From the IMG/VR virus record IMGVR_UViG_3300040801_002129, positions 1-30,936 of that record: 30,936 nucleotides of DNA. One strand, written 5' to 3'. The position numbers and the translations under genes were made by a program. The stretch is from a virus. Below are positions 8,360 through 24,128 of this stretch, piece after piece. The number at the start of each line of letters is the position of its first letter. Position 1 is the stretch's first letter. The notes beneath the pieces are model-generated. The model made no database searches and was not told the DNA's origin. It saw only the letters and a program-made list of their open reading frames with translations.

Positions 8360-8979
8360 CTCATGTACGGCTTAAGCCAGGCGCGAAAATCCCCTGGGAA
8401 ATCGGTGGGTTGGTATAGAAAAGGCTCCGTAGCAGCGATATGGAACCTGATTTGGAAGAGCTCTCCGGCTAGAACGGGTGCAGTTCTGTGGAGGAAATGT
8501 GGATCGCTGGGAAAGACTACCAACGTCCCACGCTCCGGTTGGAAGCCAAATCCGTGTTGTGCAAATTCTAGCTTACCGCCCATCACCTCGAAATTGGGGT
8601 CAAACGGTGGCTGAGATTGGTGATCCATCATGAACGCAACGCATGTCAGATCGCGGTCGCGCACACGAACCCACTTCTTTCGGAGATATTCGCTGTTCCC
8701 ACACTTCCAATCATCTTTCCCTTCCTCCACGTGCCACTCAAATACTGGACGTTCGGTACCTCGGTATTCGATGTTATAGTGGTCTTCGATCTCTTCGATG
8801 TAGGGTTCAAACCGTTCGAACACACCTTTCTCGTGCTTGGCACTATGACGGATAGATGTGATGGGATCGCCCTGTGGGTCAGTATCAGGGACCGTAACGT
8901 CCAAATCGGCGATAATTTGCTCGCACATAAGCGGCGAGAGGAAGTTGCGAAATACTAGGAACGGGGATTTTGGTGTCAT
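8356..8979 (-). CDS. 2OG-Fe(II) oxygenase-like protein
   Basis: 207 residues. The C-terminal half has the double-stranded beta-helix pattern of phage 2OG-Fe(II) oxygenases: DLTCVAFMMD, FEVMGGKLEFAQHGFGF, RGTLVVFPSDPHFLHR and FQIRFHI. Candidate iron ligands are His83/Glu85 (HVE, an HxE variant of HxD) and His164; Arg178 may bind 2-oxoglutarate. Members of this phage group sometimes lack a full ligand set, so activity cannot be assumed. Substrate unknown. The start overlaps the stop of the preceding gene (TAATG), placing it in the operon behind the protease-fold protein. Confidence 0.75.
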   Translation of the reverse strand: MTPKSPFLVFRNFLSPLMCEQIIADLDVTVPDTDPQGDPITSIRHSAKHEKGVFERFEPYIEEIEDHYNIEYRGTERPVFEWHVEEGKDDWKCGNSEYLRKKWVRVRDRDLTCVAFMMDHQSQPPFDPNFEVMGGKLEFAQHGFGFQPERGTLVVFPSDPHFLHRTAPVLAGELFQIRFHIAATEPFLYQPTDFPGDFRAWLKPYMS

Positions 8980-9971
8980 TAGTAATCGACGTCGTTGAGG
9001 CGCTCAACAGCTTCAGTTTGCAGCACCCGAACAAGTTCTTTTAGAGTTAGGTTCGAGTTCTCGAAGATTGTAAACAACTGCGCAGCGGCTTCCTTATCGA
9101 CGCCTGGCTCCTCATGTTCAAAGATGACTTCTTCTTGTGCCAGCTCTTCGGAGAGCTGTTGGATTGCGATGTCGGCGAGCTCTTCTTCCGTGCACTCTTC
9201 CTTGATGATGTTTGGATCGATGATGAAGTTACCCGCCTCCAGAGCATTTTGACCGATCAAGAAGGGGTGATCCATGTGATCGCGGTCATTGAGGTTGACC
9301 TTAACATCTTTCAGCATCTTATCGGCAATCTTGATGTTCAGCGACACTACGGGGCGGTACACTGTTTCTTCTGATGATGGGATACGCACCGCCTGCTGAT
9401 CGACTAGAGGTAGAGTGAATCGATTGTCCGACAGATCGGGGTTCATAAAGCTGACGCGACGCGCTTCTCTGTCTACTTGGATGTCCTCAGCGTGCATCGA
9501 GCAGATTGATGCGCCGGTATCTACTTTACCGGTCATTTCCTTGCCGGTTGGTAGGTCAACGACCATTACTTTAACGATATCAGGAATGATGCGATCGTCG
9601 TCGATTTGGCTCATCCCTTCCATCGTGCTACGCATACCTCCAAAACGCGCAGAAGACATCAGCCTAACGTCATTCGGAACAATGTGCATGTTGTTTGTGT
9701 TCGCGCGCCAGATGAATACCAGCCAGTTCGCCATGTTCTTGTCCTTGGCGCTCTGCACGTTTTGAGGCTGCTTGCGAACGGTGTAGATCATCAGACCTGG
9801 GTTGTTCTTTTCTAGCATTGCCTGCATGCTGTGCTCGGAGCTGCGCAGGAACACGAACTGCACGCCATCGATTGTTAACAGATCGACGCCGTCTTGCCCT
9901 TGATCGGTGAAGTGAACCTGACCGCCTTTGAATTCTTGCTCGAGAGCACTTAGGTTTGCGTACTTTTTCAT
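8979..9971 (-). CDS. Retropepsin-like (RimK-associated protease fold) protein
   Basis: 330 residues. A central segment (about 133-252) matches the retropepsin-like family of putative ATP-dependent zinc proteases associated with RimK (DUF785 type): GKVDTGASICSMHA with the catalytic-type D151-T152-G153, then V-x-F, YRPVVSLNIKIA, NLNDRDHMDHPFLIGQNAL and FIIDP. An unrelated N-terminal region of about 130 residues precedes it and an acidic helical tail follows. The fold assignment is well supported; substrate and zinc or ATP dependence are not. The start overlaps the nuclease stop (ATGA) with AAGGG upstream and a late-promoter motif 31 nt before the ATG, inside the nuclease gene. Confidence 0.8.
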   Translation of the reverse strand: MKKYANLSALEQEFKGGQVHFTDQGQDGVDLLTIDGVQFVFLRSSEHSMQAMLEKNNPGLMIYTVRKQPQNVQSAKDKNMANWLVFIWRANTNNMHIVPNDVRLMSSARFGGMRSTMEGMSQIDDDRIIPDIVKVMVVDLPTGKEMTGKVDTGASICSMHAEDIQVDREARRVSFMNPDLSDNRFTLPLVDQQAVRIPSSEETVYRPVVSLNIKIADKMLKDVKVNLNDRDHMDHPFLIGQNALEAGNFIIDPNIIKEECTEEELADIAIQQLSEELAQEEVIFEHEEPGVDKEAAAQLFTIFENSNLTLKELVRVLQTEAVERLNDVDY

Positions 9972-10693: not shown

Positions 10694-11047
10694 TTAATTG
10701 CCAGAAAGTCGCTTATTTAGCTTAGATACAAGTTTGGAGCTGGCGGTGCGCTTAGTGATGCGAGCTTTGCGGCGAATCACGCCACCCTTGGTTCGCATGA
10801 CCTTGCGCCCCTGGCGCTTCTTCTTGGGGTCGGCCCGCGTCATGCATAGCTTGGGGTCTGAAACAACCTTGCCTTCTTTTGGGCCAGAAGTACAACGATA
10901 CATCTTCTTAACCTGCTTACCAGTGCGCTTGTATGCACGCTTAGCAGCCTCTTCGATGATCTCTTCATTCTCACCTACGTACACAATCTCGCAGTCGACA
11001 CACTCGTCTTCCTGAATAATGCCATAGATCTCTTTGAGCAGGCTCAT
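10694..11047 (-). CDS. Basic Cys-motif protein with LxE leader (putative internal head protein)
   Basis: 117 residues, paralogue of the next upstream gene. It begins MSLLKEIYGII, an acidic helix with CVDC (C16, C19), then YRCTSGPKEGKVVSDPKLC (C52, C68), then about 45 residues very rich in Lys and Arg with no acidic stretch. The four Cys could bind one zinc; the basic tail should bind nucleic acid. The N-terminal L-x-E site (LLKE/I) fits cleavage by a T4 gp21-type prohead protease, which would release a basic protein into the head, as for T4 internal proteins. AAGGA precedes the ATG. Packaging is inference; the family itself is not named. Confidence 0.78.
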   Translation of the reverse strand: MSLLKEIYGIIQEDECVDCEIVYVGENEEIIEEAAKRAYKRTGKQVKKMYRCTSGPKEGKVVSDPKLCMTRADPKKKRQGRKVMRTKGGVIRRKARITKRTASSKLVSKLNKRLSGN

Positions 11048-11057
11048 GGTGTTTCCT

Positions 11058-11453
11058 TTACTTTACCGTTTTTGGCTTACGCGACTGGCTCTGACGCTTT
11101 AGGCGCTTATTCGCCTTACGAACCATGCGCGACGTGTTGGTCTTCAGGGAGATTTTTGACTTGCGAATACGCAGTCCCTTGTGTTCGGCAGCGATCTTTC
11201 GACCGGCGAGTACACGTGCCATGGATTTGCGCTTTACGCACGTTTTGGGATCGGCAACTAGGCGACCTTTCTTTTCGCCAGCAGCACAGCGGAACTTGCG
11301 AGTCATCTTCTTTCCTTCACGGCGGAAAGCAGAGATCGCCCGCTCGTTGAGGATCTCATCGTTCTCGTCTACGTGTACCCATTCTCCTTCGATCAGGCAC
11401 TCGTCGCAATCTTCATCGCGAATTAGTTCATACAGTTCTGCTAGCAAACTCAT
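11058..11453 (-). CDS. Basic Cys-motif protein, paralogue, with LxE leader
   Basis: 131 residues. I chose ATG 11453 (MSLLAELYELI) because a longer frame from 11504 would run deep into the upstream gene and because the paralogue starts at the same place. Shared features are the LLxE leader, CDEC (C16, C19), FRCAAGEKKGRLVADPKTC (C56, C72; same 16-residue spacing as in the paralogue) and a long Lys/Arg tail (KKANKRLKR style). GGGAG lies upstream. LLAE/L resembles the cleavage site of T4 gp23 (L-A-E before Ile). A tandem duplication with diverged tails is likely; proposed role is DNA-associated internal head protein (inference). Confidence 0.78.
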   Translation of the reverse strand: MSLLAELYELIRDEDCDECLIEGEWVHVDENDEILNERAISAFRREGKKMTRKFRCAAGEKKGRLVADPKTCVKRKSMARVLAGRKIAAEHKGLRIRKSKISLKTNTSRMVRKANKRLKRQSQSRKPKTVK

Positions 11454-11454
11454 G

Positions 11455-11721
11455 TTATGCTCGTGCTCCCACTTCCTGGCGAGACCCACCTGCACTCGTG
11501 ACACGATCTACCGCGGTCTTTTTCATTTGCTCTATGCGCTTCTGCTCGGGGTCACGTCGCACCGCTTGGCGGTAGAGCCTTTGAAATTCTGCAGGATTGG
11601 TTCTCAGCAAATTCGTTTTTGACTTCAGCTGAGGTGTTCGTTCAACGAAGTCTTGATCAATAGACATGTTCTCTGTCTCTGCTTGCTCAAGCAAGTACTC
11701 TTTGAATGTGATGTTAGCCAT
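11455..11721 (-). CDS. Small basic protein with capsid-targeting-like leader
   Basis: 88 residues, hydrophilic and net basic after the first 20. The N terminus MANITFKEYLLEQAE resembles the T4 internal-protein capsid-targeting sequences (type MKTYQEFIAEA), with LLE/Q as candidate prohead-protease site. The rest is charged helix (AEFQRLYRQAVRRDPEQK) without recognised domain. The ATG overlaps the upstream stop by one base (TAATG), and 1 nt separates its stop from the next ATG, so it is the middle of a tight four-gene block. Function otherwise unknown. Confidence 0.75.
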   Translation of the reverse strand: MANITFKEYLLEQAETENMSIDQDFVERTPQLKSKTNLLRTNPAEFQRLYRQAVRRDPEQKRIEQMKKTAVDRVTSAGGSRQEVGARA

Positions 11722-12761
11722 TATTTGTTACCCAAGTATTTGAACAAGTAGCGTAGAAAGTCTTGCGGGTCCATCTTGCCGTCCCCGTCGCCATCTACTT
11801 TACCAAAGACGTTCACCTTACCGCCTTCGAGATCTTCCTCCTGCTCGACGCCGTCCATACCAGCGGAGTTGTCCGCTGCTATATCGTGCTTCCAGCGAGC
11901 TAGTTGCGCGAGGCGCTTAGCCTCTTTATCGCCTTCCTTCTTGTTTTTATAGTACGCTTCCATGTCAAGAATTTGCTCTTCTTGACGAACCTTGGCCATT
12001 GCAGCTTCGCGTTCAGCCTCGGCCTTCTTTGCCTCCGCTTCGGCTTCTTTTGCCGACGCTTCGGCTGCAGCTGCATCTTGCTGAGATTTGAGTAGGTCGA
12101 TTACTTGCGACAGCATCGACATTTGGTCGAATTCGTCTCCGCCTTCTTCGTCGGCCTCCATATCAAGGTCTTCGTCGTCGAGGTCGCCTTCTTCAGCGCT
12201 CAGATCACCTTCCTCGTTGCCCTCGGCATCGTCTAGCGTCTCTTCGTTTGCAGCGGTCGCGTCTTCCTCTTCGTCTTCTTCAATCTCAGGCCAAACCACA
12301 TCAACAATTGTAAAGCGATCGCGAAGTTTGAAAAGGACCTCTGCAATCTCCATCGACGACATATCTGTCTCGGATTCTTCTTCGTCGTCGCCGTGTAGCA
12401 TGTGCGACAGTGCTGTTTCGAAGTCATCGGCTTCCTCAGAGGCAACACGAACGCGAACAACGTTACCGTTTTCGTCCTCGAGCCCGAACATCTTTGTATC
12501 TTCTAGATGCTTAGCCTTCTTGTCGGCAGCCTGCATCTTCGACTTGACAGCCTCGGCGTCAAATGTTTGGTCGGCCTCAGCAACGACCGTCATCGTCATG
12601 AAGTTGCCAACCGGCTTCAGACGACTGCGAATTTCCATCTCTCGCTTCAGGCCTTTCTTAGAAGCCTTGGCACCGAGTACGCTACGGAAGCCTGCAATAG
12701 CACCAGCTGTCGTGGCGCCACCTGCAGCCATCTCGGAGATTACTTCTTTGAGTAGTGACAT
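11721..12761 (-). CDS. Acidic EF-hand protein with LxE leader (putative core/scaffold-like protein)
   Basis: 346 residues. Order: leader MSLLKEVISEMAAGG; Ala/Gly-rich then basic region to about 55; mixed domain with FMTMTVVAEAD and VVRVRVASEE; a region 125-215 extremely rich in Asp and Glu; a long Ala/Glu/Lys coiled coil (about 220-265) and a C-terminal EF-hand loop at 323-334 (DGDGDGKMDPQD) followed by FLRYLFKYL. The loop has acidic residues at positions 1, 3, 5, 9 and 12. Acidic coiled-coil proteins with protease sites are typical of prohead scaffolds, but T4 gp22 identity is not claimed. It has a late promoter 32 nt upstream and AGGACGG before the ATG. Confidence 0.8.
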   Translation of the reverse strand: MSLLKEVISEMAAGGATTAGAIAGFRSVLGAKASKKGLKREMEIRSRLKPVGNFMTMTVVAEADQTFDAEAVKSKMQAADKKAKHLEDTKMFGLEDENGNVVRVRVASEEADDFETALSHMLHGDDEEESETDMSSMEIAEVLFKLRDRFTIVDVVWPEIEEDEEEDATAANEETLDDAEGNEEGDLSAEEGDLDDEDLDMEADEEGGDEFDQMSMLSQVIDLLKSQQDAAAAEASAKEAEAEAKKAEAEREAAMAKVRQEEQILDMEAYYKNKKEGDKEAKRLAQLARWKHDIAADNSAGMDGVEQEEDLEGGKVNVFGKVDGDGDGKMDPQDFLRYLFKYLGNK

Positions 12762-12792
12762 TAAGACCGTCCTATCGATAGTGAATCGATGG

Positions 12793-12800
12793 TATTTATT
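12793..12800 (-). promoter_or_regulatory. Late promoter AATAAATA for the four-gene LxE block
   Basis: Minus-strand AATAAATACC, 31 nt before the ATG at 12761. It lies just past a strong terminator, so the block starts a new transcription unit. The predicted leader contains two ATCGAT copies (12774-12779 and 12785-12790) that can pair as a short hairpin before the ribosome-binding site. Confidence 0.65.
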
Positions 12801-12820: not shown

Positions 12821-12850
12821 AAAAAAACCCGGACAGCGCTGCCCGGGTTT
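12821..12850 (-). terminator. Intrinsic terminator ending the helicase operon
   Basis: Minus strand: AAACCCGGGCAG pairs with CTGTCCGGGTTT (one G-U pair) and is followed by an unbroken run of T (positions 827 to 821 of the 12 kb block, i.e. 12827-12821). It lies 22 nt after the stop at 12873 and just before the late promoter at 12793-12800, separating the two operons. Confidence 0.9.
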
Positions 12851-12872
12851 CGTGTGGTAGAACGGAACTCTA

Positions 12873-21405: not shown

Positions 21406-21903
21406 ATGCTTCTCAACGAGCTTTTCAGCCCTGGCTCCGCAAAGAAAACTTGGAAACGCGTTAAAACTTCTCCGCGTTTCCAAGTTTACGCGTTCCCTGT
21501 CATCATTAACGGGAAAGATTCCAAGTACTATGTTACTTTTGATGGCAACCTAACGGTTGGTGAAGTTAGATTGCTTGGTATTGACGATTGGAAAGAGCAC
21601 AGTATTTGGCAGATTGTATTTGGTCTTGAGATCGGCGGCGACGAGGATTCCTATCGCGAAGACATCTTTAATACTGGCGGTCAACATATTAAAGTGTTTG
21701 CATCTGTAATCGATATTGTTCGTGACTTTGTAAAGAGAAAGCAGCCCGATATCTTGTTCTTCACAGCTGAGGAACCGTCACGCGTAAAGCTGTATAATCG
21801 CTTAGCGAAGCAGTTAGCGAAGATGATGGGTGGCAAAGTTGTGAAAGATAGCTATCGCGGAACGGCCTACGTAGTGTATAGCGCTAAAGGACTGGAGATA
21901 TAA
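21406..21903 (+). CDS. Unknown phage protein, paralogue A, LLxE leader
   Basis: 165 residues. It starts MLLNELF. A beta-rich domain (FQVYAFPVIINGKDSKYYVTF, WQIVFGLEIGG) is followed by a conserved C-terminal block: FASVIDIVRDFVKRKQPD ... LFFTAEEPSRVKLYNRLAKQL. This block is found in many T4-like phage proteins without a function known to me and is shared with the next gene. LLNE/L fits a prohead-protease site. It is read from a late promoter with the ATG at the predicted +1. Confidence 0.78.
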   Translation: MLLNELFSPGSAKKTWKRVKTSPRFQVYAFPVIINGKDSKYYVTFDGNLTVGEVRLLGIDDWKEHSIWQIVFGLEIGGDEDSYREDIFNTGGQHIKVFASVIDIVRDFVKRKQPDILFFTAEEPSRVKLYNRLAKQLAKMMGGKVVKDSYRGTAYVVYSAKGLEI

Positions 21904-21910
21904 CATTCTA

Positions 21911-22333
21911 ATGCTCCTTAACGAACTTTTCCAAGCCGATAGTAAGCGAATACTCAAGTGGAGATATGACGAAGACCACGTCAATGAAGTAATAGCTTCA
22001 TTTGAGACTGCTGACGGTAAGCATGCTTATTCGCTAGCAATGGATGGTAACCCTGAAGGGCAATGGTGGGTGTCATTCGCGCACCTTGATGAAGATGGAG
22101 AACATTCCACAGATATCGTTCCTGTTGGGAGCAACGCCGTATCGGTGTTTGCAACTGTTCACGCCATCATCAGAGAGGTGTTGCGTAGGAAGCCTGTAAA
22201 AACTCTCGTGTTTAGTGCCAAGGAACCATCTCGTGTTAAGCTATACCGTAGAATGGTTAAGCAACTTACGTCGAATTTCGAGACAAAGAAAATCGGTGCC
22301 AACACATACTTCAAAGTTCGTGTAGCAGATTAA
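21911..22333 (+). CDS. Unknown phage protein, paralogue B, LLxE leader
   Basis: 140 residues. It begins MLLNELF like its neighbour and shares FATVHAIIREVLRRKPVK ... LVFSAKEPSRVKLYRRMVKQL, so the pair arose by tandem duplication. The middle differs (WRYDEDHVNEVIASFETADG, WWVSFAHLDEDGEHS). It starts 7 nt after the first gene's stop; GGAG is 13 nt away, a weak site, so re-initiation is likely. No late promoter of its own was seen. Function unknown. Confidence 0.75.
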   Translation: MLLNELFQADSKRILKWRYDEDHVNEVIASFETADGKHAYSLAMDGNPEGQWWVSFAHLDEDGEHSTDIVPVGSNAVSVFATVHAIIREVLRRKPVKTLVFSAKEPSRVKLYRRMVKQLTSNFETKKIGANTYFKVRVAD

Positions 22334-22404: not shown

Positions 22405-22917
22405 ATGAAACTACACGAGGTCGCCACCCCCGAGTATGTTCTGTACGTAGACCTGGATGGCGTCCTAGCCGATCTAACAACCTACGTTGAGGACCTTCTT
22501 GGAATTACCATCAAGACGCAGTCAGATGGTAACTGGCACAATGACGATGAGATCTGGGATGAGATCCGTAAACGGGACGGCGAACCGAATTTCCAAAACC
22601 TCCAACCGTTGTCAGATGCAATGGAACTTTGGAACTTCCTGAAGCCGTACAAGCCGCACATCCTGACTGCAACCGGTCATCCGGAAGAAGCGAACGCGAA
22701 GAAAAAGCGCGAGTGGGTCAAGCGACACCTGTCGGGATATGGTGAGGTGCACACTGTACCAAAGAGCAAGCTCAAGGCACAGTTTGCAGCACCCAATCAC
22801 ATCCTAATCGACGATCGCACCAAGTCGACCCGTCCGTGGAAGCAGGCGGGTGGCATTGCGATTCTGCACAAGAGTGCAGCTAAGACGATCGCGAAGCTCA
22901 AAGAACTAGGCTTCTAA
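22405..22917 (+). CDS. 5'(3')-deoxyribonucleotidase-like HAD phosphatase
   Basis: 170 residues. HAD motif I is VLYVDLDGVLADL with nucleophile D16 and D18; PHILTATGHP gives motif II (T), a Lys-rich segment near VPKSKLK gives motif III, and HILIDDRTKSTRPWKQAGG gives motif IV acids. The small cap and 'DLDGVLAD' type fit dNMP 5'-nucleotidases of phages, which recycle or degrade host nucleotides. The N terminus MKLHEVATP is an extra leader before the fold and has an L-x-E pattern (LHE/V). AAGAGG precedes the ATG. The last 12 bases overlap the convergent gene ending at 22906. Confidence 0.86.
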   Translation: MKLHEVATPEYVLYVDLDGVLADLTTYVEDLLGITIKTQSDGNWHNDDEIWDEIRKRDGEPNFQNLQPLSDAMELWNFLKPYKPHILTATGHPEEANAKKKREWVKRHLSGYGEVHTVPKSKLKAQFAAPNHILIDDRTKSTRPWKQAGGIAILHKSAAKTIAKLKELGF

Positions 22918-24120: not shown

Positions 24121-24128
24121 TATTTATA
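24121..24128 (-). promoter_or_regulatory. Perfect T4 late promoter TATAAATA, 5 nt before lipoprotein ATG
   Basis: Minus-strand TATAAATA, an exact match to the T4 late consensus, followed by CGGTC and the ATG at 24115. The TAA is the stop codon of the upstream gene ending at 24124. There is no ribosome-binding site; leaderless mRNA predicted. Confidence 0.75.

Follow-up and report, generated by a model that had tools for sequence, protein, structure and literature searches.

The locus studied here raises the question of whether four tandem genes with look-alike N-termini, lying among the replication genes of a phage, encode head precursors that are trimmed by a prohead protease. They are carried on the minus strand of a 30,936-base virus fragment (IMG/VR record IMGVR_UViG_3300040801_002129), hereafter the window, and are tightly packed at 12761-11721, 11721-11455, 11453-11058 and 11047-10694. 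Their products, of 346, 88, 131 and 117 aa in operon order, begin with MSLLKEV (gene 1), MANITFKEYLLEQ (gene 2), MSLLAEL (gene 3) and MSLLKEI (gene 4). Gene 3 is read from the ATG at 11453, for which the ORF list gives a longer GTG start. A sequence-only reading had taken these leaders as the mark of an unrecognised late set of gp21-type protease substrates.

The family B DNA polymerase of the fragment is nearest to that of the Xanthomonas jumbo phage XacN1 (44% identity), followed by the Stenotrophomonas phages CM1 and RAS14 (43%) and, at ~30%, by the more distant jumbo phages Phosso and SCTP-2 and the RaK2/121Q group. Replication and nucleotide metabolism predominate in its gene content, and no portal, protease or capsid genes were seen on these 31 kb. 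As one part of an explanation that we consider likely as a whole, the source is a T4-superfamily jumbo phage related to XacN1. Single-protein tblastn searches against named phages found almost nothing, so that profiles were needed to find homologues. The gene 1 profile identified 66 loci in viral contigs, making this a widespread lineage. We found no confident match for genes 1, 3 and 4 in Pfam, PHROGs or PDB, nor for gene 2 in Pfam or PHROGs, and no published description of these families in the open-access literature.

The four genes form a transcription unit of their own, as had been claimed. An intrinsic terminator (12824..12851, minus strand), made of a 12-pair stem and a T run, divides them from an upstream operon on the same strand that comprises a gp41-type helicase gene and then two small genes. 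A T4-type late promoter element of the TATAAATA type, AATAAATACC (12791..12800, minus strand; also written AATAAATAC), lies 38 nt upstream of the ATG of gene 1. The cassette is followed by genes for an exonuclease, for a retropepsin-like protein with PF05618 and for a 2OG-oxygenase-like protein. In the viral loci L001 to L004 a helicase gene is again succeeded by two small genes, an acidic gene, a small gene and an exonuclease gene, and many of the 66 loci largely keep this order.

Only two genes of the window have ATAAATA upstream, against 0.1 expected, and among 39 distinct regions upstream of gene 1 homologues 38 have the motif in the corresponding position (~0.012 expected per region), the single exception having one mismatch. 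In XacN1 it precedes 43 genes (2.2 expected), which by their coordinates include those for the tail sheath and the gene 1 homologue as well as a gp22-like gene next to the capsid gene. This conservation, together with the late-gene pattern of XacN1, argues that the cassette is very probably expressed late despite sitting among replication genes.

Concerning the leaders, an L-x-E triplet taken alone was rejected as evidence, as [LI]-x-E occurs in ~11% of 12-residue stretches in proteins of these phages. When the alignments were searched for [L/I]-x-E near the N-terminus, with V accepted at the first position, a site was found in 39/39 members of the gene 1 family, in 29/29 members (two with corrected starts) of the basic family to which genes 3 and 4 belong, and in most relatives of gene 2. 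The four leaders of the window are not independent, since the products of genes 3 and 4 are 41% identical.

Gene 1 (11721..12761, minus strand) encodes a protein of pI 4.3 and net charge -48, predicted to consist of a disordered N-arm, a small alpha/beta domain (~69-156), an acidic linker and a 90-residue helix (211-300). It had been described as an acidic EF-hand protein; the acidity stands, but the EF-hand does not, the loop-like segment near the C-terminus (11745..11810, minus strand; PF00036, E 0.0013) scoring 18.5 bits against a Pfam cut-off of 25.4 and not being conserved in the family. The cut first suggested, MSLLKE/V (a slash marks the cut), must also be abandoned: L-x-E at residues 4-6 is present in 7/39 homologues, near background, and reads LKD in the nearest relative, L001. 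The conserved site is [LIVM]-x-E (phi-x-E in what follows) at residue 10, VISE/MAAGGATTAGAIAGFRS, and lies at a fixed distance ahead of a GATxAGxIA motif in 39/39 homologues, with I, L, V and M at P3 in 14, 13, 11 and 1 of them, respectively. The leaders range from 6 to 19 residues, and no neighbouring position has phi-x-E in more than 3/39 sequences; for seven sequences, where the search pattern missed or misplaced the site, it was placed by eye. The predicted propeptide is MSLLKEVISE (12732..12761, minus strand), and the mature protein would start with the N-arm encoded at 12681..12731. For the XacN1 homologue, ORF347, the predicted mature start is TAGGGATGAG at residue 9, behind MTKQKLNE, and for RAS14 it is TAGAGAIGTG.

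This junction resembles that of the major capsid protein (MCP). A 23-position HMM trained on gene 1 family junctions alone was searched against the predicted proteomes of four near-complete relatives (XacN1, G006, G007 and G010), the window and L001. Beyond gene 1 it retrieved the MCP of each of these four relatives (in ascending order, E 6e-7, 9e-7, 3e-6 and 2e-3), and no other unrelated protein of the six proteomes fell below E 5, the next match being at E 5.1. The HMM aligned the MCPs at their predicted pro/mature junction, at the end of the pro-region, as in LIAE/SAAAGSTAAHDIAGFRK of G006; the XacN1 MCP is predicted to start at TASAGAIQAN. Independently, the full-length gene 1 profile makes contact with the MCP of XacN1, with frames of MCP size in CBB and Munch, and with small proteins encoded at the syntenic position of RaK2-like phages. 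The junction phi-x-E/(S/T/M)AAxGxxxAxxIAGFR is thus common to gene 1 and to the T4 gp23-type MCPs of near-complete relatives; the likeness covers ~20 residues, and the rest of gene 1 is not capsid-like in sequence or predicted secondary structure. In T4, gp23 loses a 65-residue propeptide (PMC5694885), which ends in LTE/AEIGG. By automatic alignment the T4 site does not fall column for column on the predicted jumbo-phage MCP sites because the arms differ in length, so that the T4 and jumbo-phage sites are equivalent only by presumption.

The 88-aa product of gene 2 (11455..11721, minus strand) has a leader of another type. Its predicted leader MANITFKEYLLE (11686..11721, minus strand) contains TFKEYLLE, which resembles the ~10-aa T4 capsid-targeting sequence, CTS (MKTYQEFIAE in IPII/IPIII); the leaders of genes 1, 3 and 4 differ from it in type. 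The proposed cut at E12 finds support in nearly all relatives that share the core motif, where F-x-x-(Y/F)-(L/V) is followed by phi-x-E, a pattern that IPII and IPIII of T4 match too; in one relative, L043, phi-x-E is absent at the expected place. In eight loci this joint is internal, behind an extra N-terminal domain of ~90 residues or more, and L061 and L080 encode a single chain in which the gene-2 protein is joined to the basic one, each joint bearing a site. Retention of the joint in fusions is expected of a processing site and not needed for a mere leader, which argues for processing. The loci whose second gene is such an N-terminally extended counterpart are L003, L038, L049, L052, L062, L073, L074 and L080.

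Genes 3 (11058..11453, minus strand) and 4 (10694..11047, minus strand) encode paralogous proteins of 131 and 117 aa. The cassette had been said to encode three basic proteins, which holds for these two (net +18 and +17) and not for the mildly basic gene 2 product (net +3). The initially favoured cut at E6 gives way in both to conserved sites at E37 and E33, each where an acidic leader meets a strongly basic body. The predicted propeptides are one of 37 aa and net -13 for gene 3 (junction DEILNE/RAISAFRR; 11343..11453, minus strand) and one of 33 aa and net -10 for gene 4 (junction NEEIIEE/AAKRAYKR; 10949..11047, minus strand); the trimmed proteins would have a pI of ~12, with bodies of net +27 to +31. 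An AlphaFold model of gene 4 is of low confidence up to about residue 30 and places the first strand of the fold at residue 35.

Members of this family share the core RC-x2-G-x-x-x-G-(R/K)-x-V-x2-P-x2-C. In 27/29 of them the body directly follows the last phi-x-E ahead of the core; the starts of the remaining two were called too late, and their upstream frames read FIEE and ALEE, giving 29/29 after correction. Bodies measure 83-101 aa (net +24 to +33), and leaders, 14-205 aa long, are acidic (net -4 to -13), fusions apart. Many leaders begin like MKVDELLYD, which, by way of speculation, might be a first, uncut targeting segment ahead of the true site; replacing the cleavage Glu by Asp in T4 permits targeting and blocks cutting (PMC9026906). 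XacN1 and RAS14 have no member of the basic family, which is therefore dispensable. A fold search with the basic protein matched no solved structure, and in a viral library it gave one match alone (E 6e-5), to a 108-aa protein that by its length is probably SCTP-2 gene 12.

How does this cassette compare with known head proteins? T4 IPI, IPII, IPIII and Alt are likewise small head proteins with phi-x-E leaders of ~10 aa, basic bodies and the character of a poorly conserved accessory set. However, the acidic leaders of genes 3 and 4 are long, with the cut placed where the body begins, the junction of gene 1 is MCP-like and not of the internal protein type, and profiles of the gene 1 and basic families found nothing in T4, so that homology to IPI, IPII or IPIII is not indicated. 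The T4 core proteins gp22, gp67 and gp68 are acidic and helical like gene 1 and are cut after Glu by gp21, gp22 and gp67 ending as multiple fragments (PMC9026906). The cassette families differ from them in having only one conserved site each, homology was not detected, and in XacN1 the gp22-like gene is a different one, next to the MCP gene. Inner-body and ejection proteins of the jumbo phages phiKZ and SPN3US include several inner head proteins processed after Glu, some with long propeptides (PMC5694885), but SPN3US uses an AxE motif and propeptides mostly of >100 aa; here homology was compared via family libraries only. In the RaK2-like phages, 121Q gene 22 and CBB_293 share with gene 1 the leader, the GATSAG(A/G)IAS motif and the position after the helicase, but are of ~50 aa and lack the rest of gene 1. 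The processing system is already known from T4 and phiKZ-type phages; what is new is a non-capsid protein with an MCP-like junction, and the design of an acidic leader on a basic body. RaK2 itself (JQ513383.1) has at ~120.7 kb (L159:1501) a 51-aa gene with a gene-1-type N-terminus, MKKTINENASSGSTSSGSIAS, that is missing from its annotation.

A gp21-type protease is absent from the 31-kb fragment itself and is proposed for the source phage from its relatives. Peptidase S77 (PF03420) is encoded between the portal and capsid genes in XacN1 (ORF297), and is present in all eight other searched records of at least 190 kb, namely RAS14, SCTP-2 and six IMG/VR relatives. The window offers another candidate, the retropepsin-like aspartic protease gene two genes downstream of the cassette (8979-9971, minus strand), which has a PF05618 match at E 2.3e-13, a DTGA motif and a late-type CATAAATACC upstream, and which is conserved beside the cassette in many, not all, relatives, including L001, L003 and L004. 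Its product was rejected as the processing enzyme because it does not co-occur with gene 1: XacN1, RAS14, G009 and G010 lack PF05618, yet all have a gene 1 with the same junction, as well as S77 (the G009 start was called too late, and the junction is found just ahead of it). Cutting after Glu also fits gp21 (PMC9026906). It is thus very improbable that the leaders are cut by the aspartic protease, and the S77 protease is likely the processing enzyme. Further S77-like matches beyond the main protease occur in G007 and G008, and G006, G007 and G010 encode diverged second MCP-like proteins.

Other explanations dispense with processing, or give it another outcome. Given their place between the gp41-type helicase and the exonuclease, conserved across relatives, the four proteins could be intracellular accessories of replication or recombination, the basic ones binding replicating DNA. 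We regard this as quite improbable, given the terminator and late promoter of the cassette and the MCP-like junction of gene 1. Moreover, gene 1 sits beside head and tail genes in XacN1 and RAS14, ORF347 of XacN1 adjoining the head completion gene and lying near a structural protein gene. The helicase-exonuclease interval of CBB encodes four proteins (CBB_292, 294, 298 and 299) that were detected in virions by mass spectrometry (PMC5259590); these are syntenic, not homologous, to the four proteins of the cassette. CBB_293, which has the gene-1-type N-terminus, is not among the virion-detected proteins listed for CBB (PMC5259590). Several genes of the same interval are annotated as structural in 121Q and PBECO4. 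SCTP-2 provides no firm link to the CBB virion proteins, since its gene 7 shows no similarity to 121Q gene 28 and its gene 8 only weak similarity to 121Q gene 27.

It is also improbable, if slightly less so, that the L-x-E triplets arose by chance and that another purpose, such as an amphipathic docking helix, keeps the N-termini conserved without their being cut. The high background of the motif and its lack of conservation at residues 4-6 fit such a coincidence, as does the short N-terminal helix predicted in the models of both gene 1 and gene 4. Against it, phi-x-E is kept at one place in 39/39 gene 1 homologues despite leaders of variable length, the MCP has the same junction, every fusion joint has a site, and charge and fold boundaries coincide with the site. 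A less remote reading, though still a doubtful one, would make the four proteins a sacrificial scaffold or core like T4 gp22, gp67 and gp68, cut by S77, mostly destroyed and lost before packaging, and neither kept nor injected. The acidity and 90-residue helix of gene 1 recall T4 core proteins, of which gp22 and gp67 are broken into several pieces by gp21 (PMC9026906). In each family of the cassette, however, a single conserved junction precedes a long body that is conserved and has no repeated conserved sites, the very basic bodies suit retention with DNA, and in XacN1 a separate gp22-like acidic gene (ORF275) lies directly beside the MCP gene.

We therefore return to the idea of prohead substrates, which is strongly supported by the invariance of phi-x-E, the MCP junction, S77 in the large relatives, the late promoters and the sites at fusion joints. 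In our judgement the cassette is likely to encode late T4-like head-precursor proteins that enter the prohead and are there trimmed after [L/I/V]-x-E by the S77 protease, much as the sequence-only reading had proposed. From these sequences we infer the cleavage, recruitment, packaging or retention, DNA binding and individual roles as follows. The four proteins would be made late and recruited to the prohead through their N-terminal helices, where S77 would cut after phi-x-E alongside capsid protein processing, and the leaders would depart. Gene 1 would lose 10 residues and expose an N-arm nearly equal to the one on the mature capsid protein; the best reading makes it a putative inner-capsid or core protein that uses the cleavage and docking segment of the capsid protein. 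Gene 2 would bring a T4-type capsid-targeting leader. The acidic leaders of genes 3 and 4 may partly neutralise their very basic bodies, and leader removal would free DNA-binding internal proteins in time for genome packaging. More tentatively, a single cleavage code could couple shell expansion, the anchoring of an inner protein whose MCP-like arm docks in the same site of the shell, and DNA condensation through removal of acidic leaders, a possibility to which we would give less than even chances.

Much jumbo-phage head protein is without assignment, and three unannotated families here gain residue-exact predicted mature N-termini that can be checked by ordinary virion proteomics. The gene 1 junction suggests that a segment of the shell protein was reused on an inner protein. 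Packaged proteins could also be predicted from sequence, by the combination of a late promoter with a phi-x-E joint. In four near-complete relatives, CTS-like N-termini are found in 12.9% of late-promoter genes versus 6.1% of others (p 3e-4), and the two classes do not differ in any of four control windows inside the proteins (p 0.44-0.78), the gene starts coming from a simple caller of our own, some of them wrong. A strict regular expression for the T4 CTS run over the proteomes gave a modest excess in G006 (11/592 vs 7/2033, p 5e-4) and a weak one elsewhere.

Several other genes have starts of this kind. On the plus strand of the window, 21406-21903, 21911-22333 and 22405-22917 correspond to two MLLNELF genes and a HAD-like MKLHEVATPE gene, all with CTS-like starts, and in L001 an MLLNELF gene lies directly behind a TATAAATA. 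The genes G010:C1:241029-241664 and G006:C1:326595-327233 encode similar proteins with different leaders and a near-identical predicted mature start (MKRFIQYLQE/APLPEDWD and MKIKELLKE/APLPDDWD), and probably represent another packaged protein. Finally, at 24128 on the minus strand of the window, TATAAATAC stands immediately ahead of a short ORF, MRIVALVLTIALLSGC, whose lipoprotein-like product may be a late lysis protein.
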